From Clostridiales bacterium (GTDB lineage Bacteria; Bacillota; Clostridia; Saccharofermentanales; DTU023), in NCBI GenBank assembly GCA_028724525.1, contig JAQYCV010000019.1, positions 62,001 through 126,000 on the forward strand: a stretch of 64,000 nucleotides of DNA. Direction: 5' to 3'. Below the pieces are notes generated by a model. The model was not told the DNA's origin, did not search any database, and saw nothing but the letters and a program-made list of their open reading frames with translations. Both the position numbers and the translations under genes were made by a program. Positions 9,429 through 29,522 of this stretch are shown here, one piece after another (the first letter of the stretch is position 1; every line of letters begins with the position of its first letter).

Positions 9429-10916
9429 ATGACCACACATATTGCCAATAAACTTTTTTCCGATTTTCCCATAAGCCCTCAAATAGTCAAGGCTTTAGCC
9501 GAGGAAGGTATCAGCCAATGTACCAGCGTCCAAGCTTTGGCCATCGGGCCTATGCTGCAAGGACGAGATGTCATTGCTGAAGCCCCTACTGGCACTGGCA
9601 AAACCTATGCATTTGGGATTCCGATTATTGAACATATTGAACCGGATCTGGAGGCAATCCAAGGCCTGGTCCTCGCCCCTACCCGCGAACTCGCCCAACA
9701 AATCAAAGTAGAATTTGACCTCCTAGCCAGCCACTTGCCCCAAATCCAGAGCCTCGCCGTATACGGCGGTGAAGATATGCGCAAGCAAATCAAGAGGCTA
9801 AAAAAACATGAGGTCAATATCATCATCGCTACACCCGGCCGGCTGATCGACCATATGAAGCGAGGAAATGTAGACCTCAGCCAATTGAAGTATTTAGTTC
9901 TTGACGAGGCTGACCGCATGCTAGATATGGGCTTTATTGATGACGTTCGTTACATTATGAAAGCCTGTAATACCTCCGCAGTCAAGGGCCTTTTCACTGC
10001 AACCCTATCGCGGGAAGTCCTGGATATCTCCTGGGTCTATCAGAAACACCCCCTGGAAGTCAAAGTGGAAGCCCAGGCAGAAGACAAACCAGATATTCAT
10101 CAATATTACACAGTCGCCAATGGCTCTGAACGGATTAGCGCTATTGAAGATATCATGCAAGACTTTAAAGCAGATAAGGCTCTGGTCTTTGTTAACATGA
10201 AGCAATCCGCAGACATTGCTGCCCGCAAACTATCCCAGGAAGGCTTTAGCGCGTCTGCCCTGCAAGGCGATATGCCCCAGTCCAGTCGCAACCGCGTTAT
10301 GAAGGACTTTAGGGATGGCAAAACCAGCATTTTAGTTGGTACAGATGTGGCAGCCCGGGGCCTGGATGTAGACGATGTAGACATAGTTTTTAATTATGAC
10401 TTGCCCCTAGAAACCGAAAACTACACCCACCGCATTGGTCGAACAGGCCGGGCTGGAAAAACTGGCCTAGCCTTCTCTTTTGTGGCGCCTGGAGAAATGG
10501 AGTCCTTTGAGAAATTCTGCCGTCAATTGCGTATTGCCCCGAAGCCCTATGCCTGGGAGCGGCCAGTCGTAGCAGAAGACCTCTTCATTTCCGAAGATAA
10601 AGAGGCAGAGGTCATTGCTCGCATCCGGTCCCAGTCCAGCTACTTGCAAAACTCCAGCCTGGAGGACCGGTATGATCCTCTTCAAAGCCTGGTCAAGCCC
10701 TCTTATGGCTCAAGGTCTGGCCGGTCTAAAGGGCGGGGAAAGCCCCAAGCCAGGTCCAAGTCACGGGACCGCGGCTCAGGCAAAGGCGAGCAAGCTAAAA
10801 GAAGCTCCAAAGCAAGAAGGGGCAAAAATGTAAAGAAGAGGGACCAGGCCCCTGCTTCAGCGAGTCAGAATAAAAGCCGCAGGGTCAGAGGACCAGTTAA
10901 GCACCGGGATTTTTAA
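9429..10916 (+). CDS. DEAD-box ATP-dependent RNA helicase
   Basis: 495 residues. The Q-motif region begins with FSDFPISPQIVKAL. Motif I is APTGTGKT (52-59), motif Ia PTRELAQQ, motif II DEAD (VLDEADRML), motif III is TAT in place of SAT, and motif VI HRIGRTGRAG. The last 90 residues are Lys/Arg/Ser/Gly-rich (SRSGRSKGRGK, KRSSKARRGK), a basic tail that usually gives non-specific RNA affinity. The likely role is mRNA decay, ribosome assembly or cold adaptation, as for CshA/DeaD. The ATG has CGGAG 5 nt upstream. The stop overlaps that of the convergent murJ by 2 nt. Confidence 0.9.
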   Translation: MTTHIANKLFSDFPISPQIVKALAEEGISQCTSVQALAIGPMLQGRDVIAEAPTGTGKTYAFGIPIIEHIEPDLEAIQGLVLAPTRELAQQIKVEFDLLASHLPQIQSLAVYGGEDMRKQIKRLKKHEVNIIIATPGRLIDHMKRGNVDLSQLKYLVLDEADRMLDMGFIDDVRYIMKACNTSAVKGLFTATLSREVLDISWVYQKHPLEVKVEAQAEDKPDIHQYYTVANGSERISAIEDIMQDFKADKALVFVNMKQSADIAARKLSQEGFSASALQGDMPQSSRNRVMKDFRDGKTSILVGTDVAARGLDVDDVDIVFNYDLPLETENYTHRIGRTGRAGKTGLAFSFVAPGEMESFEKFCRQLRIAPKPYAWERPVVAEDLFISEDKEAEVIARIRSQSSYLQNSSLEDRYDPLQSLVKPSYGSRSGRSKGRGKPQARSKSRDRGSGKGEQAKRSSKARRGKNVKKRDQAPASASQNKSRRVRGPVKHRDF

Positions 10917-12589
10917 GCTTCCTGAACAGGCGTGAGGCCAAGGGTGCGACGCAAGGTGCTTTGCAAGTCCAAGGCCTCCCGAAATCTTAGGGCAATCCCC
11001 GCTAAATAATAAGTAAAAATACCGGCAAAAATTTTCAGGGCATAGAGGGCCAACTGCAGGATCTTATGTGTAGGAAAGACCGGCAGGCTATTCAGGTTGT
11101 GCAGAACTAACCAGGCAGCTGCAAGGCAGACAAAGAGCCGGATGTTAAAGGCTATTAGCCGGTAGGGCCGCATGTCATGGCGGTGGCGCTTGTAGAGGGC
11201 GAAGACCACCAAGGCTGTCAGGCAGCTGTAAGCCGCATGGGCCATACCAATACCAGCCAGGCCCCTCCCTCCTACTCCCACAAAAAGATAGAGGAAAAGG
11301 GGATTTAAGGCCAGGGAAAGCAGACCTACAAAAAGGGCAATGCCAGTTACCTTGCGGGCATAAAAGGCTTGATTGGTGATAAAAATCACAGTTTGGGCCA
11401 GCATACTGAGGCAAAACCAGGATAAGGCCGAGGCCGTCTGTTGAACTTCCAGATTGGAGTAGGAAGCAGGATTCCACTGGAAGATAGCTTGAATCGTCTC
11501 AAAATTCATGACCATAAAACTCAGGGCGAAGGGGGCAACAAAGTAGAGGGCCCGTCTGAGGCTTGCAGTATACATACCCCGCACCTTTTTTGCATCCCCC
11601 AACTCATAGAAGCCTGAGATATTAGGTAGCATAACGTTACCGATCGCCACAGCGAAAATCGCATAAGGCAGGCCCCAGGTCGTCGTACATTGACGGATGG
11701 CCGTAACGGCGCCTGGCAGGTTCAAGCCATTGGCATAGCGGTTCATAATCACGCTGGACAATTGGAGGACAGAGCCGGAGAGAATCGTAGGAATGGCCAA
11801 GCGGACCAAGCGTCGGAAACCAGGCTCCTGGAAGTCTAGGCTAAAGGCAAAATAAGCCAATTCCCGTCTGGCACAAAAGGCCTGGTAGAGGAAATAGCAG
11901 AAGGCCGAGAGAACAACTCCCCAGGCGACTTTTCGTAAGCCCTCCTCATCAGGTGCCCCCCAAAAGATCAAGGCCAGGATATAAAAAACATTGTAAAGGA
12001 CAGGGCCAAGAGCCAAGGCCTGAAAGCGCTTATAGGCAGAAAGAGAACTGTGAAGGAGAGAAACCAAAATAAGGAGGAAAGACTGAATCAGTAAAATACG
12101 GGTTAAGGGAGCAGCCATCTGGGCCATCTGCTTAAGTTCAGCCGAGGCATCTGCAGCATAAGCACCCGTAATCAAATGAATGAGAGGATAGGCTAAAACT
12201 TCAGCCAGGAGCAAGACGGCAGCAGTCAGCAAAATACTGAGGCTGGCAAAAACCGAAACCGAATGCCAGGTTTCCCGCTCACGGTGCTTCTCAATGCCTG
12301 CAGACAAAGTCGGGGTCAGCACTGCAGCAACCACACCACCGACTAAGAGTTCGTAGACTAAATCCGGAATCTGAAAAGCATTGACATAGGTGTCAGATAA
12401 TAAGCCATAGCCAAATTTAGGCACAATGAGCATTTCCCGCAAAAAGCCAGTTAGCTTGGCGAGGAACATACCCACCATGGTAATCAAGGTAGCCTGGCGA
12501 ATGCTGGCTCCCGAGCCTGCACGAATATTATGCCGACCCTGGCCAGATCTCTCCTGGTTTGCCTGACGATTATCTAAAGGAAACTGCAA
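10913..12589 (-). CDS. murJ: Lipid II flippase MurJ (MATE-like)
   Basis: 558-residue polytopic membrane protein of the MviN/MurJ family, which moves lipid II across the membrane. The N-terminal signature ITMVGMFLAKLTGFLREMLI is clear, followed by about 14 hydrophobic segments. The start is a TTG at 12589 with AGGAG 8 nt upstream; it leaves a hydrophilic tail of about 32 residues (Arg/Gln-rich) before the first membrane segment. The gene follows murE on the same strand after 120 bp, a pairing that makes sense for wall precursor synthesis. Stop codons of murJ and the helicase overlap (10913-10916) with no terminator visible between them. Confidence 0.92.
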   Translation of the reverse strand: MQFPLDNRQANQERSGQGRHNIRAGSGASIRQATLITMVGMFLAKLTGFLREMLIVPKFGYGLLSDTYVNAFQIPDLVYELLVGGVVAAVLTPTLSAGIEKHRERETWHSVSVFASLSILLTAAVLLLAEVLAYPLIHLITGAYAADASAELKQMAQMAAPLTRILLIQSFLLILVSLLHSSLSAYKRFQALALGPVLYNVFYILALIFWGAPDEEGLRKVAWGVVLSAFCYFLYQAFCARRELAYFAFSLDFQEPGFRRLVRLAIPTILSGSVLQLSSVIMNRYANGLNLPGAVTAIRQCTTTWGLPYAIFAVAIGNVMLPNISGFYELGDAKKVRGMYTASLRRALYFVAPFALSFMVMNFETIQAIFQWNPASYSNLEVQQTASALSWFCLSMLAQTVIFITNQAFYARKVTGIALFVGLLSLALNPLFLYLFVGVGGRGLAGIGMAHAAYSCLTALVVFALYKRHRHDMRPYRLIAFNIRLFVCLAAAWLVLHNLNSLPVFPTHKILQLALYALKIFAGIFTYYLAGIALRFREALDLQSTLRRTLGLTPVQEA

Positions 12590-12671
12590 GGCAAGCTCTC
12601 CTCACTTTATTTAGAATCGACCCTCGCGGGCCTTCATTGCTAGTCATTTTAGCATAGGATACTCAAGAGCG

Positions 12672-12709
12672 GACCAGGCCGATCGCATCAAAGCTGGGGC
12701 GGTCTGGTC
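12672..12709 (-). terminator. Hairpin downstream of murE, weak terminator
   Basis: Arms GACCAG-G-CCG and CGG-T-CTGGTC (12672-12681 with 12700-12709) can form a 10-position stem directly after the murE stop. On the minus strand no T-run follows, so termination is doubtful. It may only stabilise the transcript end. Confidence 0.35.
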
Positions 12710-14233
12710 TTACTTGTCCCGCAGGGCTGCGCGGACTAGGGCCTTTTCATCCAAGGGAATCTTTTGTCCCTTGATCAGCTGGAAATCCTCATGTCCCTTG
12801 CCGCAGAGGGCCAGGCAGTCTCCTTCTTGCAGGTCATGAACAGCCAGGCGAATAGCTCTGGCCCGATCAGGCTCAACTGTAAAGTGGTGGAAGCTTGGGG
12901 AAAAATAGCTGGCGATTTCTTCCGCAATGGCCAAGGGGTCCTCATAGTCCGGATTATCTGAAGTTACATAGACCCAGTCAGCATACTTTTCTCCAACCTC
13001 AGCCAACTCCCGACGTCTTTCCTTGGACTTACCGCCCACGGAACCAATAAGAAGCAGAAGTCGGCGGGGATGGAGGGCCTTAAGGCTAGACAACAAATTT
13101 TCCAAGGACAGGCCATTATGGGCATAGTCTATGATGATGCTGGCACCCAGATCATTTGCCAGGCTCTCCAGACGGCCGGGGACATGCGCCTGACCTACCA
13201 GGCTAGCCGTCTGAGAGGGCGGGAAGCCTAAGATATCCAGAGCTGCTAGGGCAGCCATGCTGTTTTCCAGGAGAAAGTGAGCCCCAGGCCGCAGGGTCAA
13301 GCCTTGGCCCTCAAATTGGAAAGAGATCTCGTCCGCATTTTGCCGGACCTCCTGGGCCTGATAGACATGATCAGATGGCAGAATCTGGTCCTCCTGGCTG
13401 GAATAGTAATAGATACTGGGCATAGGGGGCAGAAGGCTAGTCTGGGCAAGCTCAGCCATGTAAGAGGCCTGGGAATCGTCGGCATTAATCAGAGCTTTTT
13501 TGCTCAGGGAGAATATCTTGGCTTTGGCCGCCCGATAATCCTCCCAAGATTCATGTTCTTTAGGACCTATATGGTCCCGACCCAGATTGAGAAAAATACC
13601 TAAGTCGAATTCAAGGCCATAGGCCCGATCCATAGCTAAACCTTGGGAAGATAGCTCCATGACGACCTGGCTAGCCCCCTGAGCAAGAGCCTGGGCCAGG
13701 TATTTATGAATCAGGTAGGATTCCGGGGTGGTGTTAGGGGTAGACAGGACTTGGTCTTTAAAGACGATACCCGTCGTGCCAATTAAAAGGCAGGGCGCCC
13801 CCAAGGCATTAAGGCTCTGGCTGATAAGATGGGCTACAGACGTTTTGCCCTTAGTCCCTGTGATCCCCACAAGGGTCAGGTGTTTAGCCGGCTGGCCAAA
13901 GAAACTGGCGGATGCCAGAGCCAGGGCTTGGCGCCCTGATCGGACCTGCAGATAGTTATAGGACTCGATCCCTTCCACAGCCATCAGCTCTGCCACCCGG
14001 TTTAGACCTGCTTGGCCCACTAGTAGAAAGGCGCCGGCCTTCCAAGCCTGAGCCAGATAAATTGCTGCATCCTGGCTACGGCCCGCTAAAGCAAAAAAAG
14101 CCTGGCCCTTGGCCAAGTTGCGAGAATCATAGGCCAAATCCTGGACCTCACGGGAAAGGAGATCCGTCCTTCCCCAATGGGAGGCGATCTGGTCCTGTAC
14201 GGGAATACTAGCAATCAGTTCGTTAAAGGTCAT
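12710..14233 (-). CDS. murE: UDP-N-acetylmuramoyl-tripeptide synthetase
   Basis: 507-residue Mur ligase adding the third amino acid to UDP-MurNAc-L-Ala-D-Glu. Visible are the N-terminal YDSRNLAKGQAFFAL segment, ATP loop GITGTKGKTS, STPNTTPES, VMELSSQGLA, and C-terminal IIIDYAHNGLS. At the amino-acid specificity loop it reads DNPDYEDP. Meso-DAP enzymes carry DNPR there and L-lysine enzymes DNPA-like sequences, so the substrate may be lysine or ornithine rather than DAP; this is inference. It sits next to murJ and citG, away from the dcw cluster at 44-56 kb, which lacks murE. Confidence 0.92.
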   Translation of the reverse strand: MTFNELIASIPVQDQIASHWGRTDLLSREVQDLAYDSRNLAKGQAFFALAGRSQDAAIYLAQAWKAGAFLLVGQAGLNRVAELMAVEGIESYNYLQVRSGRQALALASASFFGQPAKHLTLVGITGTKGKTSVAHLISQSLNALGAPCLLIGTTGIVFKDQVLSTPNTTPESYLIHKYLAQALAQGASQVVMELSSQGLAMDRAYGLEFDLGIFLNLGRDHIGPKEHESWEDYRAAKAKIFSLSKKALINADDSQASYMAELAQTSLLPPMPSIYYYSSQEDQILPSDHVYQAQEVRQNADEISFQFEGQGLTLRPGAHFLLENSMAALAALDILGFPPSQTASLVGQAHVPGRLESLANDLGASIIIDYAHNGLSLENLLSSLKALHPRRLLLLIGSVGGKSKERRRELAEVGEKYADWVYVTSDNPDYEDPLAIAEEIASYFSPSFHHFTVEPDRARAIRLAVHDLQEGDCLALCGKGHEDFQLIKGQKIPLDEKALVRAALRDK

Positions 14234-14274
14234 AGGCCGTCCATCATCTTTTTTATTACTAGCCCTAGTATGCG

Positions 14275-15168
14275 CTAATCTGCCCCCTTGTACCAGTCAG
14301 CTTCCAACAGATAGAAGAAAATAGCCAAGGCTAAGAGGTCAGCCGACCCTCCAGGGGAAAGATTTTTGCCTATCATGGCCTGGTCAAAAGCGTCTAGATC
14401 TGGGTAAAGAGCACTTAGAGGCAAAGGGAAAGACGTTTGAAGATGAAAGCGATCCAAGATAGACTGGGCCTCTGCCTGGACCCAGGCTAAAGCCTGGTCC
14501 CCTCCCCTTCTTAGGATATTGCTGTCAACGTTTTGCGCCATTATGGCAACCAAGGCAAGAAGCATGGCCTCTTGCAAATCACTGTTCGTCCCCCAGGCAC
14601 GCAAGATGACCAGGCCCGGGTCTAGGGCCAGCCTATAGCCTTGAGCGGCCGCCAGGCGGGCACCTCCCGCTTTTCCCCGGCCGGAAGTCTTCTGCCAGTC
14701 CCTATAAACGGGGCCGGCCAGCTGGCTCACGAGCTGGCAGATAGCCTCTGGCTTGGGCTGTAACTCCTTCTGCCCATAAAGATAGGCGGCTACAGGCAAA
14801 ATTAAGGCCCAGGCGAAATTGAGGCCAGCATGGCAGTTAACGCCTTTATTGGCCGCAAGCGAGGCCACTTCCCCGGCCAGGCCAAGTTTTTGTAGGCAGG
14901 AAAAAATTTGCCTGCCAGCAGAGGACGAAAGCCTGTGGCCCTGGCTTCCTAGCCCCTCTGCGATCAGAGGACCTGCCTGGGCATAGGCCAGAAGATGTGG
15001 CTCCATAGCCCTGATAGACCGCATAAAAGAGGCCTGATCCATATCCTGGTGGGAACCAGTATTAAAGGGGTCAACTAGGCCTGGCTTGGGACCACAAGTC
15101 ACCTCTAAGGTCATAGCCTGGAGGGCCAATTCCACCAGATATTCGGGAAAGGAAGTCGCCTGAGCCAT
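14275..15168 (-). CDS. citG: Triphosphoribosyl-dephospho-CoA synthase (CitG family)
   Basis: 297 residues with the family motifs PKPGLVD (27-33) and GSHQDMD (38-44), a NCHAGLNFAWAL segment and a GRGKAGGARLAAAQGY segment. The enzyme makes 2'-(5''-triphosphoribosyl)-3'-dephospho-CoA, precursor of the prosthetic group of citrate lyase, malonate decarboxylase or citramalate lyase acyl-carrier subunits. No such lyase is in the window. Since it follows the methylaspartate operon, citramalate lyase (citramalate to acetate plus pyruvate) is the natural client; that link is inference. It begins 15 nt after the P-loop/SAD gene. Confidence 0.85.
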   Translation of the reverse strand: MAQATSFPEYLVELALQAMTLEVTCGPKPGLVDPFNTGSHQDMDQASFMRSIRAMEPHLLAYAQAGPLIAEGLGSQGHRLSSSAGRQIFSCLQKLGLAGEVASLAANKGVNCHAGLNFAWALILPVAAYLYGQKELQPKPEAICQLVSQLAGPVYRDWQKTSGRGKAGGARLAAAQGYRLALDPGLVILRAWGTNSDLQEAMLLALVAIMAQNVDSNILRRGGDQALAWVQAEAQSILDRFHLQTSFPLPLSALYPDLDAFDQAMIGKNLSPGGSADLLALAIFFYLLEADWYKGAD

Positions 15169-15183
15169 CCGTCAAGTAAGCAG

Positions 15184-16101
15184 CTAAATGCTATTCATAT
15201 CGACCAGCTCCATATTGAGATCAAAGCCCACGATACCAACGAGCATGTACTGGCCGGTCAGGGTATCCTGGAGCAGTTGCGGATGGAGGCGGAATTTACT
15301 GATTTTCGAGGTGTTGTCTACATGCATGCGAGGAGCAGTACAGTAATGGGTAATATCCCCTATCTGGACGTGATTGTCATCCAGAAAGGAGACATCCAGG
15401 TGGGCATCAATCAAGGCATTGATTTCTTGCTCCAACTGTGGGATATCTAGGTCGGGTTTTTCGTTAAAAGCAAGGATGAAACCATGGCGGACATCCCCGT
15501 GGGTATAGCGATGGATATTGTGTTTTGCCAAGCAATATTCGCAGAGATCTTCTGTCGTATGGGCCATCTTGCGGTAAATAATAGATTCATAAACGATTTG
15601 AGAAATATCTTCCGGCTCAGGACCAAAATAGGAAGGCCGGGTGACAATAATCTCCTCCCCAACCCCGATTAGGAGGTCGGCATTGCGGCCCAAGCTGTCA
15701 TAAATTAAGTCAAAATGTTCTACAATGACCCGCTTGCCATTCTGCATGGCATTGCGAATAGCATCTGCCAGCTCATGCAACTGGTAAAAACCCAACTCAA
15801 AGCGGACATCCAAATGATAGGTATGGGGTTTAAAAAAGCCCTCATCCTCTAAGTCCATGATGGGCAGGGGCCGGACATTGACACCCTCATCATCGTTGGT
15901 GAGTTCCAGGCCAGGAAACATCCCTTTAATCAGGGCAGATTTGCCAGAACCAGCTTCGCCGATCACCCCAATTATTTTGTCAAAGGGAGATAAATACAAC
16001 TGAGCGATCTGGGCTCCCATATCGGCCATACGGAGACGGCCGCGCGGTGCCAGGAGGACGCTGTAAAGTTGATTTTTCTGCATACGGGCTGAATAGGACA
16101 T
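15184..16101 (-). CDS. P-loop protein with AlaRS second-additional-domain-like C-terminus
   Basis: 305 residues. Walker A GEAGSGKS is at 48-55 in a setting typical of small NTPases. The C-terminal third contains HGDVRH (201-206) and CTAPRMHVDNTSKISKFRL (254-272). The latter resembles the CGGTHVxNTGEIGxF signature of the alanyl-tRNA synthetase SAD/editing domain, with a candidate zinc set H201/H206/C254/H260. I know of a clostridial family annotated from this domain that accompanies glutamate mutase genes, but its function is not established to my knowledge. It starts behind the mal terminator with its own AAAGGAG site, and is followed by citG. Confidence 0.65.
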   Translation of the reverse strand: MSYSARMQKNQLYSVLLAPRGRLRMADMGAQIAQLYLSPFDKIIGVIGEAGSGKSALIKGMFPGLELTNDDEGVNVRPLPIMDLEDEGFFKPHTYHLDVRFELGFYQLHELADAIRNAMQNGKRVIVEHFDLIYDSLGRNADLLIGVGEEIIVTRPSYFGPEPEDISQIVYESIIYRKMAHTTEDLCEYCLAKHNIHRYTHGDVRHGFILAFNEKPDLDIPQLEQEINALIDAHLDVSFLDDNHVQIGDITHYCTAPRMHVDNTSKISKFRLHPQLLQDTLTGQYMLVGIVGFDLNMELVDMNSI

Positions 16102-16183
16102 AGGGGCTCCTTTCCGGCTTTTCGGCGGATGAAAAGCTAGGCCGTGGGTTTAGCCTTATTATACTTGCCCTGGCGGCTAAGAC

Positions 16184-16231
16184 AAAAGAAAAAGAGGCGC
16201 CCCTGACACCGGAGTGTTGTGAGGCGCCCCC
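16184..16231 (-). terminator. Terminator of the glutamate mutase operon
   Basis: Arms built on GGCGCC (16196-16201 and 16223-16228), extended by neighbouring G/C pairs, form a stem of at least 8 bp. On the minus strand it is followed by TCTTTTTCTTTTG. It lies just after the mal stop and separates mal from the P-loop/SAD gene. Confidence 0.8.
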
Positions 16232-16259
16232 TTAGGCTTATAAACTAGGGGCTAGATCC

Positions 16260-17504
16260 CTATTGCTGGGCTTTCTCATAGGCCAGGATACGGGCCATTT
16301 CGTTATAGACGATCATGTAGCCTTCATCCACACCCATACCAGGCTTAGCCAGGACTTGCTCAGGCTGGGTAGCCATGGCTGCCTGGACACACACCTGGGC
16401 AGACCGGTCTGTTTCATTGCAGGTACCACCCTGGTAGGCATGCATGTCGTGGGTCTTACAGTAGAGAACGGCCTCGATGGTGTTGTTGATGCCACCCAGG
16501 TCTGGGGTCTTGATCTGGACCATATTGCCTGCTTTAGCATCCGTGAATTCCTTGATATCTTCCAAGGTATTGCACCATTCATCTGCGACGAGCTGGACCT
16601 GGCAGCCTTGTTTTTCTAATTCCTGACGGAGGCCAGCCAGGCAGCGGATTTGCTCTGACTTAGAACCGGCATCCATGGGGCCTTCGATCCGAAGTTGGAA
16701 GGGGGCAGCAGCTTCTTCCAGCGTTTTGAGATAGGCAGCCATCTCAGCAAAATTATCGTTGCCAAAAGCCTCTCCAATCGTGCCATAGACATCAATATGG
16801 AAGATGGGGCTGTAAGCAGGATCCTGCCGCATTTCCATCACGCGATTACGGAGCCACTTAACATATTCTAGGAGCTTTTCGCCTTTACGACCCAGCTTTT
16901 CCTCGACATTATTAATAAGGGCATGGGGTAGAACTTGAGCCTGCTTGATGATCATTTTTTCAGCATTCTCATAGCGGTTGTCACCAGACTGTGTGAAGAT
17001 GGGTAGCATCTCCTGGGCAGGCTCACAATGATATTCGTCTGCGACGACCTGATACATCATTTTCTTTTGCGCCTTGGCGACGGCATCCAAGAGGGCTTGG
17101 GTCAAACCATAACGCAAGGCAGTATGCAGGCGTTTGCCATCAATCTCCATATGGTCGAACTCTTCAGCCAGAGCTCTAAAAGAATCCAAGTCGCGGCCGA
17201 CCAGTTTTGGAGCGATATGCTTCTCCACCAGGGGAATATATTCTTCAGCCAAGAAGAGGGGATCACGTCCGCCGGCGCCAGAATACTGGACTGCGGCACA
17301 GTCGCCCCAAGCGATTTGACCATCTTCCAGGACAAGCATCAGGGACAGGGATTCACCCGGTTGACGAATGCTTGTAAAGCCTGGCGTCTTGGGCTCACCC
17401 ACGTAGTTGAAACCATCATGGCCAGCGCCAGACTTGATGGCCTTCTGGTCATCAAAGTAGAAACCGGTTTTGCCGGCAGAGCAGATAACTTTTTGGATTT
17501 TCAT
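16260..17504 (-). CDS. mal: Methylaspartate ammonia-lyase
   Basis: 414 residues, the usual length for the enolase-superfamily lyase that converts L-threo-3-methylaspartate to mesaconate and ammonia. Seen are the N-terminal GYVGEP-like stretch (GFNYVGEPKTPGFTSIRQPG), IDVYGTIGEAFG in the barrel, LVADEWCNT and the catalytic-lysine region QIKTPDLGGINNTIEAV (about 326-342), with YQGGTCNETDRSA near the C-terminus. It has a GGAGG ribosome site. It is the last gene of the mutS-mutL-mutE run, acting directly on the product of glutamate mutase. Confidence 0.96.
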   Translation of the reverse strand: MKIQKVICSAGKTGFYFDDQKAIKSGAGHDGFNYVGEPKTPGFTSIRQPGESLSLMLVLEDGQIAWGDCAAVQYSGAGGRDPLFLAEEYIPLVEKHIAPKLVGRDLDSFRALAEEFDHMEIDGKRLHTALRYGLTQALLDAVAKAQKKMMYQVVADEYHCEPAQEMLPIFTQSGDNRYENAEKMIIKQAQVLPHALINNVEEKLGRKGEKLLEYVKWLRNRVMEMRQDPAYSPIFHIDVYGTIGEAFGNDNFAEMAAYLKTLEEAAAPFQLRIEGPMDAGSKSEQIRCLAGLRQELEKQGCQVQLVADEWCNTLEDIKEFTDAKAGNMVQIKTPDLGGINNTIEAVLYCKTHDMHAYQGGTCNETDRSAQVCVQAAMATQPEQVLAKPGMGVDEGYMIVYNEMARILAYEKAQQ

Positions 17505-17544
17505 ATTTGCCTCCGAGATTTTCTCTCAAAAATTAGCTTGTTAA

Positions 17545-18993
17545 TTAGGGACGACCTACTAGACGGCCCTTGGAAATAGCATAGACATCATCGATCACCA
17601 TCTGGAAAGAAGCTTCGCGACCTTCAGCCTTAGCCCGTTCTTCCAGCTTGGCTCGGTGGAAGTCTTTGAGTTCCTGCGGGAAGGGCAGGTTGCCCATAGC
17701 AAAGACCCGAACCGCCCCATCATTGTCACGGGCCGGTAGCATCTTGCCTGCATTATAACGGCAGGGGGCGAAAGGAATATCAATAACACCGGCTTCTACG
17801 CCTCGAATCGCTCCTTGGGCGATATCCCCCTCACCTAGTTCGATACACTTATCTAGGACACAGCGGGTCTCTCGCATGATGATATCCTTTTCCTGGGCCA
17901 GAGCATGCTCTTCGAGGGATTGGTCGTTGAGCATGGAGATCACTTGTTTAGTGCAGCGGAGGCCAGCGGCGTTTGCTTCTTTGGTAGGCACCCCAATGGC
18001 CTCATGAGGAGTTTTAACAATGACCTTGGTAGCACCCGACAGACCCGCAACTACAGAACCCCAAGAAATAACGGCAAAGGCCTTGGCCTCATCTTGGGGG
18101 AAACCGCCCATCCACTGGTGGAGAACGGTAGTGACTTTGACCTCATCATGGCCAAAACGATGGAGATATTCATCCGTCAAAGTCTCCAGAGTTTTAAGGG
18201 CTGCTACGTCCTGAATCAGGTTTCCGCATTGGCCATAGCCCACAGTAATATCGCGGACACCCTGCTCTGCAGCCAGCAGAGCTTCAATCACGGCAACAGA
18301 GTGGGAAACAAATGGAGGAACCAAGGTTCCGGTCAAGGGGCCATAGGGTTCGCGGTTAATGGATATACCATTTTCTTCATAAAGGCCCGTGAGGCGGTCA
18401 ACATACTGCCAGTCACGAATGGTCCTTTCCATAGGAACGTTTTTCGCATAGGGCAGGTTGTAGGAGATTCCCCCACCTTCGTAGGAGGTAAAGCCACCCG
18501 CATAGGCGATTTCTGTTAAGAGCCGGGCATCCGGAGTCCCATGGCGAACCTGGAGAGGAACACCTACGGATTCGCAAACCTGGCGGCAACCAGCCACCCC
18601 ATGGTTGACTGCGGGGAAGCCGTTGAGCATGGATTTGCCGGTTTTGATGGATTCTTCAATGCCTACCTCGGCCTCTTTATAGCGGTTTTGCCTAGTATAG
18701 GAGTCAATAGTGGTGGGCAGGAGGTCTGCCTCCCCTTCCTTTTCTAGGTATTGCAAAAGCTCAATATGCTTATCGATCAGGGCGACACCAGCCCGGGGCT
18801 GGATCAAGGTCCGACCTTCAGCCTTGGCCTTGGCTAACTTTTTAGAAAAGACTTTTTCTGCAGGAATCGCCTGGTGGTATCTATAAGATTCTTCCAAGTC
18901 GACATCCTTGCCGGTGGGCCATTGGGCGAGGACCTCCTCCCGGAGGGCTCGGAATTCTTTATCAGGTATTTTAACATTACGGATTTCGCTCAT
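17545..18993 (-). CDS. glmE: Glutamate (methylaspartate) mutase, large subunit E
   Basis: 482 residues, the catalytic TIM-barrel subunit that, with the B12-binding S subunit, interconverts L-glutamate and 3-methylaspartate by an adenosylcobalamin radical mechanism. Family-typical stretches are [61 protein letters not shown] and [11 protein letters not shown]. Its ATG overlaps the glmL stop by 4 nt (ATGA), so the two are translationally coupled. The mal gene follows after about 40 nt. Length and order match the clostridial operon. Confidence 0.97.
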
Positions 18994-20372
18994 TGCTCAA
19001 CTAACTCCTTTTTCATAATTCTGAGGGCTAGACTTGGGTCATCTTGGCAAAGCACCCCCATGGCAGAGAGGATATATTTTTGATCTAAAAGGACTTTAAA
19101 GTCCTTAGGACGCAGAGAAGTAGGATTTGCAGGATCCCAAGCAGCATAGGATGCGAGCTTCTTCAACTCGTGGCTATGGATCACGGCCCCCCCTGTTAGG
19201 ACCAGGATATCGACAGATCTGAGGTCTTTGCCTGTTTGAGCAAAAGCCCGTCCCATAGGGGTATAGACTTCTTCAATGGATCCACAGTGCCGACCCACAG
19301 CCACATCAATAGCAGTGCCTACGAGGGCATCATCCAATTGGCGCAATTCCTCTGTAGCAGGCACCCGGTCTGTATGCTGGGCCAAGTCATCGCAGAGGGC
19401 TTGGACTTTGTCAGGAGCCAGCTGGGCTCTTTCTGCCACCAGGTTTAGGCCCTTGGCTTCTAAGATACCGTGCAGGCTGTAGCGCATACCAATATCGCCT
19501 TCCACCGTGCGTTTAGCATAAGGCTCAGGCAAGCCCTTCATGACCGTCGTCATATCTTCAGGCAGGCCATAGGCCATGGAGTAGACATCCGTAGTAGCTC
19601 CACCTGGATCCACAGCAATGAGGTCACCAAGACCCGCTTCCTCCTCGGTACCCTGGGCTAAGACCTTCATGGCCGCTAGCATGGCCGCAGGAGTAGGCAG
19701 GAGGATGTTATGGATCATGCCTTCTATGCGGGATAAGCCCTTGGCCTCAACAATTTTTGCCAAGAAAACCTGGCGGATGGCCTCTTGGGCCTCTGCAATA
19801 TTCAGTTCCCCCAAGCGGGGCATAACATTAGCGACAATGTGGAAGTCAAGCCCTGCCTCTGTAAAAATCTTCCGAATCTTGCGATTGGCAGACCGGTTGC
19901 CTGCCACAATAATGGGCTGGTTGAAGCGGATATCTGCCAAAGCTTGGGCATTTTCTAATATGCAGGCTTGGTTTCCCCCATCCGTTCCCCCAGTCAAGAG
20001 GAAAATATCGGGTTTAAGTTCGGAGATAAGGTCAAGGTCTTCATCCGTGAGTTCATGATCAAAGACCTTTATCACCTTAGCGCCTGCACCCAAAGCGGCC
20101 ATTTTTGCAGCTTCCGCTGTAAGCTCCGGCATGAGGCCGGAAACTAACATACGAAGGCCACCTGCGGCCGAAGAACAGGCCTTATGGGTAATAATCTCTA
20201 TAGGGCCAATCTGACTTTCCAGCTTGCCAAGGGCTTGCTGGAAGCCTTCAAAAATATCCGTTTGGATGGTGGTAAAAGCTGCAGCGGTACCAAGTATTTC
20301 CGCATGCTCAGGATCTACAGCACATAACTTGGTAAAGGTGGAGCCAAAGTCGCTCAGGAGCAGGGCTTTCAT
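18990..20372 (-). CDS. glmL: Glutamate mutase reactivating factor (MutL, ASKHA ATPase)
   Basis: 460 residues with an actin-like ATPase fold: [12 protein letters not shown] (phosphate-1 motif) at the N-terminus, [10 protein letters not shown] and [11 protein letters not shown] further on. It lies between the two mutase subunit genes, as in known glm/mut clusters, where the product exchanges damaged cobalamin on the mutase at the cost of ATP. A GGGAGG site stands 9 nt before the ATG. Length is normal and no key motif is missing. Confidence 0.95.
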
Positions 20373-20446
20373 GCTGCATGACCTCCCCTCGTATAGACAG
20401 ACCCGTATGGCCCAGCCGTCATCTTATACACTTGCATCTTCAGGCC

Positions 20447-20896
20447 CTAGGCTTTGGCCCCATGATCTTGGGAGCCGTCTTCAAGACCTAAATCGTGTTT
20501 CAGCCATTTGATAGTTTCTTCCGGTGTCGTTCCCGGTGGGAAGACCCGGTTGAAGCCCATGGCATGGAAACGCTTTTCGACATTCTCAAAATTCTGTTTA
20601 CCGACGACTATGTTGCCGCCAACAAAGAGCAGAATATTATCCAAACCTGCTTCATCACATTTGGCCCTCAGACCCCGGCAGTCTAACTCACCATGGCCAT
20701 AAAGAGAGGAAACGACAATCGCATCAGCAGCGGTTTCTACGGCCGCCGCTATGAATTCTTCCTGGGACACCATAACGCCTAGGTTAGTGACTTCAAAGCC
20801 CGCCTCATTAAAGGCAAAGTCTAGAATACGGATGCCCACGGCGTGAACATCAGCTCCGATGACCCCAATCACTAGTTTCTTACCGTTCTTTTCCAT
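20447..20896 (-). CDS. glmS: Glutamate mutase, B12-binding small subunit S
   Basis: 149 residues forming a cobalamin-binding Rossmann-like domain. The DxHxxG motif that supplies the lower axial histidine is seen as DVHAVG near residues 16-21, followed by [10 protein letters not shown] and [11 protein letters not shown]. It assembles with the E subunit to hold adenosylcobalamin. Two ATGs are close together. The second (20896) is 6 nt after AAAGGAA while the first has no spacing, so I take the second. The symbol is glmS in the mutase sense, also called mutS; it is not the aminotransferase or the mismatch protein. Confidence 0.96.
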
Positions 20897-20922
20897 ATGC
20901 ATTTCCTTTCAGGCAAAAGCGC

Positions 20923-21486
20923 TTATGCGTAGCCATGTTCAGCCCGCCAGGCAGCTGGGCCACTTTCGTATAGATTGTGACCTTGGCTATCGATCACGAC
21001 AAGTAGAGGCATGCTTTCAACCTGAAGCTTGCGGACAGCTTCCGCACCCAGGTCTTCATAGGCGATGACTTCAGCGCTTTTAACACAACCAGCCAGGAGC
21101 GCCCCAGCGCCACCAACTGCTGCCAAATAAACCGCACCATGATCCTGCATGGCCTGAATGACTTCGGGGCTACGCTTACCCTTCCCGATCATGGCCCTTT
21201 GTCCTAAGGCCAAGAGGCGGGGAGAAAAAGCATCCATGCGGTAAGAGCTCGTAGGTCCACAGGCTCCAATCACTTGGCCCGGTGCCGCAGGAGAAGGTCC
21301 TACAAAAAAGATGACAGAACCTTCCACAGGGAAAGGCAGGTCTTCTCCCCTGTCTAAGGCTTCCACAAAACGCTTGTGGGCCGCGTCCCGGCCGGTATAA
21401 ATCGTACCAGACAGATAAACCCGATCACCCACACGTAGTTTTTTACTATCTTCAAGGCTCATGGGAGCAGTTAAGTGATATTCCAT
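20923..21486 (-). CDS. Class I fumarase-type hydratase, beta subunit (probable mesaconase)
   Basis: 187 residues matching the C-terminal (beta) half of iron-sulfur class I fumarases: SLEDSKKLRVGDRVYLSGTI, RDAAHKR, FVGPSPAAPGQVIGACGPTSSYRMD and GKGKRSPEV. The ATG at 21486 overlaps the alpha-subunit stop (TAATG), giving tight coupling. Because it is followed by the glutamate mutase genes, mesaconate hydration to citramalate is the likely reaction. Fumarase itself cannot be excluded from sequence alone. Confidence 0.9.
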   Translation of the reverse strand: MEYHLTAPMSLEDSKKLRVGDRVYLSGTIYTGRDAAHKRFVEALDRGEDLPFPVEGSVIFFVGPSPAAPGQVIGACGPTSSYRMDAFSPRLLALGQRAMIGKGKRSPEVIQAMQDHGAVYLAAVGGAGALLAGCVKSAEVIAYEDLGAEAVRKLQVESMPLLVVIDSQGHNLYESGPAAWRAEHGYA

Positions 21487-22325
21487 TAGAGCACCTCCGT
21501 CATATGGCGGGTGGCATGACAATTGATATTGACGGCCACAGGCAAGCCTGCAATATGGGTGGGCAGGGCCTCGACATGCACAGCTAAGGCCGTAGACCGG
21601 CCGCCGTAGCCTTGAGCGCCTACGCCAGTTTGAGCAATCAGGTCGTAAAGCTCATTCTCCAAGTCTGCATAGTAAGGATCAGGATTGTGGGTTCCCGTCT
21701 CCCTTAAGAGAGACAGCTTTGCAGCCAGGGCGACCTTATCAAAGTTACCGCCAATGCCCACACCTACGACAATTGGAGGGCAAGGATTGGGGCCTGCGAT
21801 TTTAACCGTTTCCACGACAAAGTCCTTAACACCCTCTACGCCATCACCAGGCCGTAGCATTTTTAGTCGGCCCATATTCTCTGAACCAAACCCCTTGGGC
21901 GCAACCGTGATTTTGATCTGGTCCCCAGGTACCCGGAAGAGATAGAGGGCCGCAGGCGTGTTATCTCCCGTGTTCACCCGCCGCAGAGGATCAGACACGA
22001 TGGATTTGCGCAGATAGCCCTCAGTATAGCCTTGGCGTACGCCCTCATTGACCGCGGCTTGCAAGTCGCCCTGGAGGAAGACTTCTTCGCCCAGCCAAAT
22101 AAAGACAAGAGCCATACCCGTATCTTGACAGATCGGCATTTGACTCTCTTCCGCAAGCTGGTAATTGTGGATAATATCTTCCAAGGCTGAAAGGGCAGCC
22201 GGGGAATCCTCTTCTTCTTTCAAGGCCTGGAGCCGGACGCGTACGTCCTCAGGCAAAACGCGGTTGCAGGCAATGCACATGCGTTTAATAGGGCCAATCA
22301 GGTCTTTGGCCTGATACGTTCTCAT
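21486..22325 (-). CDS. Class I fumarase-type hydratase, alpha subunit (probable mesaconase)
   Basis: 279 residues, the [4Fe-4S]-binding half of class I hydro-lyases. Likely cluster cysteines lie in MCIACNRVL, MPICQDTG and NPCPPIVVGVGIGG. It is the first gene of the glutamate operon with a strong GAGGAGG ribosome site and an upstream promoter. In glutamate fermentation through methylaspartate this type of enzyme makes (S)-citramalate from mesaconate. Position and pairing with the beta subunit support that role, whereas a citric-acid-cycle fumarase would be the fallback. Confidence 0.9.
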   Translation of the reverse strand: MRTYQAKDLIGPIKRMCIACNRVLPEDVRVRLQALKEEEDSPAALSALEDIIHNYQLAEESQMPICQDTGMALVFIWLGEEVFLQGDLQAAVNEGVRQGYTEGYLRKSIVSDPLRRVNTGDNTPAALYLFRVPGDQIKITVAPKGFGSENMGRLKMLRPGDGVEGVKDFVVETVKIAGPNPCPPIVVGVGIGGNFDKVALAAKLSLLRETGTHNPDPYYADLENELYDLIAQTGVGAQGYGGRSTALAVHVEALPTHIAGLPVAVNINCHATRHMTEVL

Positions 22326-22353
22326 TGCAAAATCCTCCTCATATCTATTTGTT

Positions 22354-22382
22354 AGAATACTAAATTATATGCTGTATGACAA
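22354..22382 (-). promoter_or_regulatory. Promoter of the glutamate degradation operon
   Basis: On the minus strand, TTGTCA (22377-22382) and TATTCT (22354-22359) are separated by 17 nt, about 30 nt upstream of the first ATG. A TATAAT also lies in the spacer and could serve as an alternative -10. No operator palindrome is obvious. Confidence 0.65.
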
Positions 22383-22440
22383 TTAAAAGACCCTTGCTAG
22401 GCCTTTTCTCACGCGAAAGCACCTGGCAATTAGTTCCAGA

Positions 22441-23373
22441 TTAGCTGGTAAAGTCCTCATAGTGGGGAATGAAGCCCTCTCCTCTAGCTTCTGCATAATC
22501 AAGGAAAATGGTGAGCGCCTTAGGGTCTTCCTCTCCGACAATCTTGCGGATTTCTGGAACCTGCTTTTTATTACAGGCCACAAGGAGAACCTTTTTGTCC
22601 GCGCCAGAAAAGGCCCCCTCGGCTTTGAGGAAGGTGCCACCTCTCTCGAGCTTGCTTTTAATTTCCTCCCAAATATCCTGGCTGTGGTCGCTGATAATCA
22701 AGGCTATCTTGCCGGATATAGCCCCGCTCATGAACTTATCAATCACGACAGTATAAGAGGCTGTAAAGAGAATGCCGTACATCAAGGCATTCAGGCTCTT
22801 GTAGACAAAAACCCCTACTAAGATGATGATGCCGTCAATAAGGATGGTAATCTCACCCACAGAAAAATGGGGCTTGACCTTGCGGATAGACATAATGACA
22901 AGGTCCGATCCCCCCGTGCAAGTACCAGTCTGGTAAATGATGCCAAGGCCCAAGCCATAGATGGCACCGCCAAAGACTGCGGCAAAGAGGTTGTCAACTG
23001 GCCCGTTAATTGGATAGGTCGGAAAAAGCGGCAAAACAATATCTAGGAAGAAAGCATTAACGAGAATCGTTTGGAAGGTCCGAATTAAATAAAGGCCGCC
23101 TAGGTAGCGCAAGGCAAGCAGAATGATAGGAACATTGATCAAGATAGAGAGCAGGCCCAGAGCAAGGCTGGGAAAAAAGTGGTTAAGGATTAAAGTAATA
23201 CCTGTCACGCCACCGGGAGCAAAGTCGGCATTGTAGACAAAGATCATAATGCCCGCTGCATAGAAGAATGAACCGATGACATCCATTAAAAGGTAATGCG
23301 GCTCATTTTTAAAAAAGTGTGTCCACTGATCTTTACTGGGAATGATATTGGCGTATTTTTTACTTGTGCTCAC
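22441..23373 (-). CDS. YitT family membrane protein
   Basis: 310 residues with five or six N-terminal hydrophobic segments (about 35-200), containing FAPGGVTGITLIL and TCTGGSDLVI, typical of the YitT family. A C-terminal soluble DUF2179 domain follows (from GKIALIISDHS, with ADKKVLLVACNKKQVPEI). The transported solute of this family is not established. I chose the GTG at 23373 because GGAGG lies 8 nt upstream; the frame is open 10 codons further. It is the last gene of the run that begins with the diadenylate cyclase, after the SGNH hydrolase. Confidence 0.85.
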   Translation of the reverse strand: MSTSKKYANIIPSKDQWTHFFKNEPHYLLMDVIGSFFYAAGIMIFVYNADFAPGGVTGITLILNHFFPSLALGLLSILINVPIILLALRYLGGLYLIRTFQTILVNAFFLDIVLPLFPTYPINGPVDNLFAAVFGGAIYGLGLGIIYQTGTCTGGSDLVIMSIRKVKPHFSVGEITILIDGIIILVGVFVYKSLNALMYGILFTASYTVVIDKFMSGAISGKIALIISDHSQDIWEEIKSKLERGGTFLKAEGAFSGADKKVLLVACNKKQVPEIRKIVGEEDPKALTIFLDYAEARGEGFIPHYEDFTS

Positions 23374-23428
23374 GAGTCCTACCTCCACTTCTCTCCAAAA
23401 CACCTCATTGATTGTACTCTACAAGCTA

Positions 23429-24187
23429 TTATTTTGCTATCTGTGACAAACTTTCTATAAGGGCCTGGGAAATTTTAGCCGCCCCCTGCAGATTAGGATG
23501 GATCCCATCCCAGAAATCCTGGTCAAAATCTGCCGCATTTTGGTAGAGCTCGCGCATGTCCACCAGTAGGAGGCCATAGTGACGAGCCACTTGGGCCGTA
23601 GCATCGGCAAAGTCCATAATACTATTTCCCCGGCCATTTAAGGGCTGGTCACTAAAGTAAGTAGCATTCAGGGGCGTCGTCATGAGCACGATCGTAGTAT
23701 CTGGCAAAGCCGCTTGCAGATATTCCACAATATAAGAGTAGGCACCCAGGAAATTGTCCATAGTCTTGTCCGCGAGGGGGAGGTCGAATTGTTCCTCCGT
23801 ACCCAGATAGAAATCCGAATAAAAGTCGTTCGTACCGCCCATGATGGTCACCAAGGCTGGCTGGGCCGCAACAATCTCCGACAAACGTCCTTCCTGCCAA
23901 AATGCCAGGGGGCCAAAACCCGCCAGGGTGGTTCCACCAATACCCTGGTCTATGTGATTTAAAGCAAAATGCTCAGCAACCGCTGCCTGCCAGTAGCCAC
24001 CATCGGTTATGGAATCGCCGTAGGAAACCCAAACTTGATCCTGGAGGGCCCGTTTGTCAAGCATAATCTTCTCCTCTGATTGGCCTGGCCGAAAAATTAA
24101 GACCAAAACCACAGCCAAAACCAGCCCTAGAGCAAGCAGGGCTAAAAGAAGCAAGGGAAGATCTGGTCTGGCTTGACGATCTTTCAT
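23429..24187 (-). CDS. Membrane-anchored SGNH/GDSL hydrolase
   Basis: 252 residues. A single N-terminal membrane segment (about 10-32) anchors an extracellular SGNH domain. Catalytic blocks are GDSITDG (57-63, Ser nucleophile), GGTND (117-121) and DGIHPN (227-232, Asp/His). Such esterases often remove acetyl groups from wall polysaccharide or hydrolyse lipids. Here the neighbours (glmM, an amidase-like protein) hint at a cell-wall substrate, which is inference. It starts 9 nt after the amidase-like gene. Confidence 0.85.
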   Translation of the reverse strand: MKDRQARPDLPLLLLALLALGLVLAVVLVLIFRPGQSEEKIMLDKRALQDQVWVSYGDSITDGGYWQAAVAEHFALNHIDQGIGGTTLAGFGPLAFWQEGRLSEIVAAQPALVTIMGGTNDFYSDFYLGTEEQFDLPLADKTMDNFLGAYSYIVEYLQAALPDTTIVLMTTPLNATYFSDQPLNGRGNSIMDFADATAQVARHYGLLLVDMRELYQNAADFDQDFWDGIHPNLQGAAKISQALIESLSQIAK

Positions 24188-24196
24188 GGCATAGCC

Positions 24197-25471
24197 CTAG
24201 TCTGCGCAGAAGAATTGATAGGTAGAGTGGGCCAAGGCCTCAGCCAAAGTCATGAGAGTTTTCTCTTTAGAAATACTTTTCATATTATCCAGATTCTGCC
24301 TTTGGGCCACGATAACTTCTACCGAGGTCAAGTTATTATAAACCGCAGACAAGACCTGGCCTTCTCCCACCCCGGTCTGCTTGCCCTGGTAGTTAAGCTC
24401 TGGGAGATACTGGCGGATATTGCGGTCCATTTGCTCTGCCAGCCGCCTCCGGGCAGAGGAGTCATAAGCGACATAGGCCGGCATATCCTGACTGCGCTCT
24501 TCGAGAAGCTCACTCGCGCCATTGCGTTCTGCACTACTGCTACCGTAATAGACGACTCGGCTGCCTTGGGCAGATTTTTCATCGCCTAAGCGCAAAGAAA
24601 TAAAACAGACATCCTTATATTGTTTTTCCATATCCAAAAGCAGGCGGAGGTCGGGCCCCACACCTAGCTGGGTAAAGACCCGGCGGGCCTCTGGAGAATC
24701 CGGGTTAGAGACCGCTGTTTGCAGATAGGGGATAAGACTTTCGATGGCTTGAGACTTAAACTTTTGTTCCTTCAACTCATCAACAAAACGCAGGGCAAGA
24801 TTATTTCCAATAAAGGCCGCTTGGGCGATCTCCGACTGCGAAGAGGCTTGATTCCGAGTCAGAACCACCTTAGCGCCCAGGCTCTCCAGTTGCGTCTGTA
24901 ACATCTCTGCTAATTTATTAAGAATCTGGTCCTGGGCAATGATGACATCGGGGGCGACGGTAGTCTCTTCTTCTTCATCTTCTTCGTTATCAGTGCGCTG
25001 GGCTGCATAGGGAGACACAGGCAAGCCCGTATAGGGATCAGTAGGAGCCACATTGCCAGCAGGTTTTGAGGAGGGCTGAGGGCTATTCCCCCCGGCGGGA
25101 CTCATGATCTGCGGAGCAGTCACCTCACCCGCATCGATAAAGACAGTAATACCCTCCAAGGCGTGCTCATTTTTGGCCCGTCCACGATAAAGGCTGAGAT
25201 CCGCCTTTCGGTATTCTGGGAGCACAGAAGAGGCTGGCCAAACATAGACCCCTCGGTCATTTTTCTGGCTGATATTGGGGACATTGTCATCCTGGAGGCC
25301 TAGGTCGTCCATGAGGGCATACTGGGCCATGGCAAGATCCAAGGGACTTTCCCGCCTGGCTTCTAAATATAACTCCGGCTTAAGCTTGGCCAAAATGAAA
25401 TTTAAGGCCAGGAGGAAGAGGCTGGCCACTAATAATAATGAGAGGATTCTCCATGCCTTGCGTTGTGTCAA
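24197..25471 (-). CDS. Amidase_3-like protein lacking zinc histidines (probable pseudoenzyme)
   Basis: 424 residues: an N-terminal membrane anchor (10-28) and a region that follows the layout of N-acetylmuramoyl-L-alanine amidases. VFIDAGE (110-116) stands where active enzymes have DPGHGG, AKVVLTRN (200-207) matches the strand before the LTR motif, ISLRLGD (291-297) replaces SIHANS, and SVEVIVAQRQN (near 384-394) matches the VE-GF-SN end. Both zinc histidines are thus replaced (E116, R294). A 55-residue Pro/Glu-rich insertion (about 120-175) splits the fold. A TTG start follows AGGTGG. A non-catalytic wall-binding or amidase-regulating role is inference. Confidence 0.6.
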   Translation of the reverse strand: MTQRKAWRILSLLLVASLFLLALNFILAKLKPELYLEARRESPLDLAMAQYALMDDLGLQDDNVPNISQKNDRGVYVWPASSVLPEYRKADLSLYRGRAKNEHALEGITVFIDAGEVTAPQIMSPAGGNSPQPSSKPAGNVAPTDPYTGLPVSPYAAQRTDNEEDEEEETTVAPDVIIAQDQILNKLAEMLQTQLESLGAKVVLTRNQASSQSEIAQAAFIGNNLALRFVDELKEQKFKSQAIESLIPYLQTAVSNPDSPEARRVFTQLGVGPDLRLLLDMEKQYKDVCFISLRLGDEKSAQGSRVVYYGSSSAERNGASELLEERSQDMPAYVAYDSSARRRLAEQMDRNIRQYLPELNYQGKQTGVGEGQVLSAVYNNLTSVEVIVAQRQNLDNMKSISKEKTLMTLAEALAHSTYQFFCAD

Positions 25472-25486
25472 TGAATCTACCCCACC

Positions 25487-26842: not shown

Positions 26843-26847
26843 GAAAG

Positions 26848-28155: not shown

Positions 28156-28189
28156 GTACCTCTTCCCTCCTCAGCTTATTTATTGATCT

Positions 28190-28195
28190 ATTATA
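28190..28195 (-). promoter_or_regulatory. -10 element upstream of cdaA
   Basis: Perfect TATAAT on the minus strand, about 35 nt before the start codon, followed by a strong GAGGAGGG ribosome site. The -35 region (TTTATT about 17 nt upstream) is weak. It likely drives the cdaA-glmM-amidase-like-SGNH-yitT run. Confidence 0.45.
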
Positions 28196-28220
28196 TGGTG
28201 CAGGCGCTAAAAATAAAAGG

Positions 28221-29459: not shown

Positions 29460-29472
29460 CTTTATATAAGAG

Positions 29473-29496
29473 ATGGGTCCCGCAGGCAGGACCCAT
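29473..29496 (-). terminator. Hairpin between heptad-repeat gene and MFS gene
   Basis: Perfect 8-bp stem ATGGGTCC/GGACCCAT (29473-29480 with 29489-29496) and an 8-nt loop. On the minus strand only a mixed CTCTTATAT follows, so it is a weak or partial terminator of the MMPL-heptad operon. Confidence 0.5.
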
Positions 29497-29522
29497 TAAA
29501 GCTCCTCTAAAGCATAGGCTAC

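Follow-up and report, generated by a model that had tools for sequence, protein, structure and literature searches.

Textbooks describe the methylaspartate route of glutamate fermentation. In tRNA t6A synthesis the P-loop ATPase is TsaE, whose partner TsaD is an ASKHA protein. The complex of TsaE with TsaB–TsaD forms only with ATP (PMC4330362). Methylaspartate-pathway gene clusters were surveyed in the FumD paper, the cluster section and figure legends of which do not name the gene described here (PMC4682846). The product of this gene combines two known kinds of domain, a TsaE-like ATPase and an SAD editing-type domain; the open-access literature yielded no account of the two together or of a tie to GlmE, and no paper in which glutamate mutase or methylaspartate is connected with TsaE or with editing of the AlaX type; an earlier description may exist elsewhere.

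The window is the whole stretch of 64,000 nucleotides that was analysed, and the TsaE-like/SAD protein encoded at 15184–16101 carries the working label PSAD. The gene is single-copy in the source genome and lies, as the earlier note had it, between mal and citG, with the mutase genes upstream (Table 1). CitF of citramalate lyase is encoded elsewhere in the same genome—the citramalate lyase step is thus covered too. The gap between mal and PSAD holds a hairpin resembling a terminator, then a promoter-like site; these consensus matches suggest a separate PSAD–citG transcript, and promoter-like matches are no commoner than in shuffles. Because these elements follow mal and citG starts 15 bp beyond PSAD, the two genes may be cotranscribed. 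Neither a cobalamin riboswitch nor any other Rfam RNA reaches the gathering threshold in 10000–30000.

Table 1. Features of the PSAD locus, in window coordinates
Feature	Position	Strand	Basis or remark
citG, triphosphoribosyl-dephospho-CoA synthase, 15 bp downstream of PSAD	14275–15168	minus	PF01874, 9e-52
PSAD, TsaE-like/SAD protein, 305 aa	15184–16101, stop included	minus	ORF
SAD (AlaRS/ThrRS/AlaX editing-type) domain, residues 160–305	15187–15624	minus	hhalign, domain model, Foldseek
C254-T-A-P-R-M-H260, CxxxH counterpart with two inserted residues	15322–15342	minus	R258 119/120
H201	15499–15501	minus	117/121
H181-T-T-E-D185, counterpart of HxxxH	15547–15561	minus	120/121 and 117/121; aligned to HTGEH of an AlaX-like protein
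TsaE-like P-loop domain, residues 1–159 (approximate boundary)	15625–16101	minus	Foldseek
E128-H129, likely equivalent of the TsaE IEW glutamate	15715–15720	minus	each 121/122; by eye, beyond the aligned stretch
HLDVR, residues 96–100, counterpart of TsaE HFDxYR	15802–15816	minus	H96, D98 122/122; aligned to YHFDAYR
LTNDDEGVNVRPLP loop, residues 67–80	15862–15903	minus	low-confidence in model, pLDDT < 50 at 67–74
Walker A GEAGSGKS, residues 48–55	15937–15960	minus	GKS 122/122
Terminator-like hairpin (16210–16196), then promoter-like TTGTCT-16-TATAAT (16185–16158)	16158–16210	minus	consensus scan only
mal, methylaspartate ammonia-lyase	16260–17504	minus	TIGR01502, 3e-187
glmE, methylaspartate mutase subunit E	17545–18993	minus	TIGR01503, 2.7e-232; solved structures 6h9e and 1cb7 match
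glmL, mutase accessory protein	18990–20372	minus	NF040745, 9.5e-180
glmS, B12-binding mutase subunit	20447–20902	minus	NF002612, 5.9e-66
Fumarase-type hydratase beta subunit (putative mesaconase)	20923–21522	minus	PF05683
Fumarase-type hydratase alpha subunit (putative mesaconase)	21486–22325	minus	PF05681

Relatives of PSAD within the order share 53–75% identity. A genome-collection scan gave 391 relatives, and the 80 retained include MAGs of Treponema and Chloroflexi. Plasmid records add one from Peptoclostridium acidaminophilum (locus EAL2_RS13820, 57% identity) and one from Prevotella nigrescens (44%), each labelled "hypothetical protein"; a RefSeq product name such as "alanine-tRNA synthetase second additional domain-containing protein" may also exist. 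PSAD reaches the cut-off of no Pfam or NCBIfam family, a sequence search of the PDB gives no significant match, and no phage relative was found. Weak Pfam, NCBIfam and PDB sequence matches to ABC and ABC-F ATPases cover the Walker A motif only, with an ABC control profile aligning over 27 columns, and this identity was discarded. The full-length AlphaFold (AF2) model, with 65 relatives in the alignment, has a pLDDT of 86.7 and a pTM of 0.83, and its six Foldseek matches in the PDB at E ≤ 0.001 are AlaX-M (2e1b) and five TsaE/YjeE structures. A tandem PSAD pair stands upstream of rph in L186/L228 (G234:C23), and L187:11493-11987 (genome G208) is a 165-aa PSAD ORF comprising the TsaE-like half only, with a partly degenerate GlmE nearby and rph directly downstream.

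The N-terminal half features a TsaE-like fold. The TsaE/YjeE structures 1htw, 6nak, 6n9a, 5np9 and 6s84 are matched at E values of 1e-4 to 8e-4, with a probability of 1.0 and a TMt of 0.51–0.55. The sequence evidence is modest—the N-terminal profile matches TsaE at E 1e-4 from Walker A to HxD—and hence the assignment leans mainly on the fold. Residue conservation was counted over 122 relatives (120–122 per position). The Walker A motif proposed by the earlier note at residues 48–55 stands, its GKS being invariant, and Walker A, HxD and the later Glu are all present, with key residues conserved in at least 121 of the 122 sequences (the Glu matched by eye). In the LTNDDEGVNVRPLP loop, L67, D71 and P78 are conserved in 122/122, D70 in 121/121, and N69 and R77 in 121/122; E102, R124 and R155 are further invariant residues. 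The source genome encodes a separate TsaE (G000:C33), and it is therefore unlikely that PSAD works with TsaB/TsaD in t6A synthesis.

The C-terminal half features the SAD fold by structure model and by profiles, in line with the likeness suggested in the earlier note. The SAD-only AlphaFold model (residues 160–305, pLDDT 87.8) matches 1nyr, 2e1b, 1v7o, 1v4p, 1wnu, 3wqy and 1tje at E values of 1e-5 to 1e-3 and a TMq of about 0.55–0.64; apart from two designed epitope scaffolds, all matches at E ≤ 1e-3 are AlaRS, ThrRS or AlaX domains. The C-terminal profile matches ThrRS (E 1.8e-8), AlaRS (2.5e-6) and AlaX (1.3e-5) in hhalign and finds nothing in control profiles of unrelated families (E 0.07–0.4), and the score against Pfam tRNA_SAD (PF07973) is 11.8 bits, below the curated cut-off of 24. 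The CxxxxxHVxNT pattern read earlier is present as C254-TAPRM-H260-VDNT, and since AlaRS and ThrRS have C-x3-H, the C254-x5-H260 of PSAD has two residues inserted. Of the zinc set proposed along with it, C254 (120/120), H260 (119/120) and H201 (117/121) are conserved, whereas H206 is found in only 84/121. The conserved motif H181-T-T-E-D185 was absent from that reading. Neither canonical motif occurs in PSAD: HxxxH is replaced by H181xxxD185, with Asp in 117/121, and CxxxH by C254x5H260, both ends of which are conserved. Judged by its residues, this is an SAD-type site in which one ligand differs and the stretch between Cys and His is longer by two residues, R258 among them; R258 may read an acidic side chain. 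The source genome also encodes separate ThrRS, AlaRS and AlaX-like proteins. Net charge was dropped as a test of tRNA binding because known editing domains are equally acidic.

Across genomes, PSAD accompanies GlmE. The two occur in nearly the same set of the 118 genomes of the order sample (32 with PSAD, 31 with GlmE), and the 299 genomes of the phylum sample hold PSAD in 61, GlmE in 72 and Mal in 60. GlmE is present in 59 and Mal in 49 of the 61 PSAD genomes, with Fisher p values of 6e-47 for PSAD–GlmE and 7e-34 for PSAD–mal that serve as a guide only, the genomes being related; the earlier note's idea, which an independent distribution would have undone, holds in this respect. Only two genomes have PSAD and no GlmE: in one the gene is a broken remnant, and the other is a MAG of 63% completeness. 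Conversely, 13 of the 72 GlmE genomes, nine of them with Mal, carry no PSAD, and the Escherichia coli cluster glmS-glmL-glmE-mal-AtuA-DUF4387-symporter-fumarase-cobO is without it as well—PSAD is hence closely associated with the pathway yet not required for it. With rph regressed out, protein distances of PSAD correlate with those of GlmE at 0.43 (19 loci) and 0.53 (32 loci), with those of mal at 0.11 and with those of GlmL at −0.11 (19–32 loci), all given as values without a significance test.

Several genomes keep PSAD without a complete mutase. The loci of family f32 (L170–L173, L250 and L256, the last beginning within the GlmE-like gene) carry GntR, a GlmE-like gene, PSAD and rph. The six f32-type genomes show no GlmL match, no Mal at E 1e-40 and no GlmS above the cut-off, and two of them give no more than weak B12-domain matches. 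The solved relatives of GlmE are structures of the C. cochlearium enzyme, in which we take R66, R100, R149 and E171 to be the substrate residues; in the f32 GlmE-like proteins the regions that would bear R66 and R100 are missing and R149 and E171 are not kept, and f32 PSAD retains its motifs. For L170/L171, PSAD is about as constrained as RNase PH (Ka/Ks 0.08 against 0.07) and the GlmE-like protein less so (0.27); this pair alone is quoted because synonymous changes approach or reach saturation in most others. Genomes G150 and G192 combine PSAD with a GlmE that mostly retains its substrate residues and have no GlmS, GlmL or Mal match. The f32, G150/G192 and G208 cases show that PSAD does more than assist the complete mutase. 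Nor can such help be its whole function, since GlmE genomes without a recognisable GlmS should make no mutase, and a methylaspartate-dependent role fails for some genomes because PSAD is kept beside a degenerate GlmE with GlmS, GlmL and Mal undetected. This retention suggests a second role of GlmE.

The gene order around PSAD was compared over 141 loci, in stretches of limited length. Genes of the glm, mal, fum, AtuA or DUF4387 kind are found in 118 of them, and pathway or citrate-lyase-type genes in 128. Pathway clusters that include PSAD occur in four phyla, Bacillota, Bacteroidota, Spirochaetota and Chloroflexota; Prevotella and MAGs of Treponema and Leptolinea show this linkage too. In 43 of the 56 phylum-sample loci, rph is directly downstream. 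Related clusters without PSAD also adjoin rph (murI-glmE-(HgdB-HgdC-MBL)-rph), and in the Prevotella, Treponema and Leptolinea clusters PSAD is present with no rph seen nearby; the adjacency was therefore rejected as proof of a tRNA role and looks like an inherited position.

Further variation was observed at these loci. AtuA (DUF1446)/DUF4387 genes occur in 48 of the 141 limited-length stretches (for example L038, L073 and L266), CitDEF in 35 (L033, L035 and L265) and both in none, which suggests that AtuA/DUF4387 stands in for the citramalate-lyase step or an equivalent one. In L216, L221, L222, L229, L236, L244, L247 and L176, a fixed set of three genes separates glmE/mal from PSAD/rph, whether or not the rest of the pathway is present: one HgdB-like (HGD-D), one HgdC-like (BadF/BcrA ATPase) and one of metallo-beta-lactamase fold. 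GlmE without the B12 subunit is seen at L175:15864-17315, L176:8326-9774 and L226, with substrate residues mostly kept and no GlmS above the cut-off. The PSAD-less clusters L178 and L183 hold mal seemingly split into two ORFs—about 4 kb apart in L178—by what appears to be an insertion or a frameshift.

PSAD is tentatively read as an ATP-dependent partner of GlmE with an SAD site that would act on an acidic amino acid or on an ester of one. This reading draws on the presence of GlmE in 59 of the 61 genomes, the pathway-linked loci, the retention in f32, the PSAD–GlmE distances, the two folds and the conservation of the site. The TsaE-like domain would bind ATP and dock on GlmE, as modelled on TsaE and TsaB–TsaD; the SAD site, probably metal-bound, would grip an acidic amino acid or ester, the side-chain carboxylate of which R258 would recognise. 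Loading, proofreading or repairing the cargo of GlmE would then be the likely task of PSAD, useful to the mutase reaction rather than required for it. Against this stand the 13 of 72 GlmE genomes without PSAD, the E. coli cluster and the GlmE genomes without GlmS, and GlmE may be a mere marker of a wider unnamed module with HgdB/HgdC-like genes. It is conceivable, although fairly unlikely, that PSAD and GlmE form a module of their own apart from B12-dependent mutase catalysis: an ATP-switched handling of acidic aminoacyl esters, recruited by glutamate fermenters and outliving the mutase where GlmE is a pseudoenzyme.

The strongest rival is trans-editing, in which the SAD domain would remove the amino acid by hydrolysis from 3-methylaspartyl-tRNA or from some other misacylated acidic tRNA and the ATPase domain would govern docking or release. 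It is possible but doubtful, and it presumes that the non-protein amino acid of the pathway is mischarged onto tRNA. SAD relatives are aminoacyl-tRNA deacylases, the H/D/C/H site and R258 are conserved, and both GlmE and Mal are present in 49 of the 61 PSAD genomes; trans-editing would account for the locus in most fermenters, though not in f32. A precedent is FthB, which clears fluorothreonyl-tRNA (cited in PMC11295145). The position directly upstream of rph also speaks for it, but this looks inherited given that murI-glmE-rph occurs without PSAD. Moreover, no methylaspartate is expected in f32, where PSAD is kept with GlmS, GlmL and Mal undetected and a GlmE without the substrate arginines; Asp replaces the second zinc histidine and Cx5H replaces CxxxH; and nine genomes have GlmE and Mal without PSAD.

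PSAD could also do what TsaE does to TsaD, remodelling an actin-like (ASKHA) ATPase encoded in its cluster—GlmL here, HgdC elsewhere—and so aid the B12 reactivation of the mutase. The TsaE fold of PSAD, the ASKHA nature of TsaD, the place of GlmL in the operon and the HgdC-like genes in 16 of the 141 PSAD loci fit this proposal, which is nonetheless improbable: PSAD distances do not track those of GlmL (−0.11), f32, G150 and G192 have PSAD with no GlmL match, f32 has no HgdC nearby, and the SAD domain would be left unexplained. The earlier note had spoken of a kinase or ATPase, of which the ATPase part narrows to the TsaE-like fold. A small-molecule kinase phosphorylating an amino acid of the pathway or a nucleotide, with the SAD as specificity domain, is very unlikely, since the top full-length fold matches (E ≤ 0.001) are TsaE and AlaX and not kinases; it could draw on the P-loop, on the conservation of NDD, H-D and E, and on a weak nucleoside-kinase-like match (NF006743, E 0.07). 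A citramalate lyase maturation factor acting with CitG/CitX on the prosthetic group is highly improbable despite the adjacent citG in the window and the order citC-PSAD-citX in Peptoclostridium, because PSAD is found equally in clusters without citrate-lyase-type genes (the 48 AtuA/DUF4387 loci without CitDEF), and f32 has neither CitDEF nor AtuA/DUF4387 nearby.

With PSAD read as a GlmE partner, a well-known fermentation pathway seems to have an overlooked component that accompanies GlmE across phyla, occurring in about four fifths of the sampled GlmE genomes of the phylum and in three more phyla; the domain pairing predicts ATP-dependent GlmE binding and specificity for acidic aminoacyl esters. 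The clusters are of the same type (GntR, Glm, Mal, MesAB, Cit) as those described in PMC4682846. Within the operon, PSAD shares with GlmL (MutL), the mutase reactivating protein, the character of an ATP-binding accessory, and differs from it since GlmL has an ASKHA fold and a distribution unlike that of PSAD. FthB exemplifies a deacylase tied to a pathway making a non-protein amino acid, and we know of no ATPase domain in it; it is related to ProXp-ST1 and not to SAD (PMC11295145). Compared with TsaE (YjeE), PSAD has the same fold, Walker A, HxD and later Glu, but scores 16.7 bits against the TIGR00150 cut-off of 60.1, features EH for IEW and the long loop of residues 67–80, and is linked to GlmE instead of t6A genes. 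Compared with AlaX, the AlaRS editing domain and ThrRS N2, it has the SAD fold and profile similarity and retains the first His, the Cys, the last His and T/S-x-x-I after the His, but differs by HxxxD, Cx5H, a nearly invariant inserted Arg and the fused ATPase.
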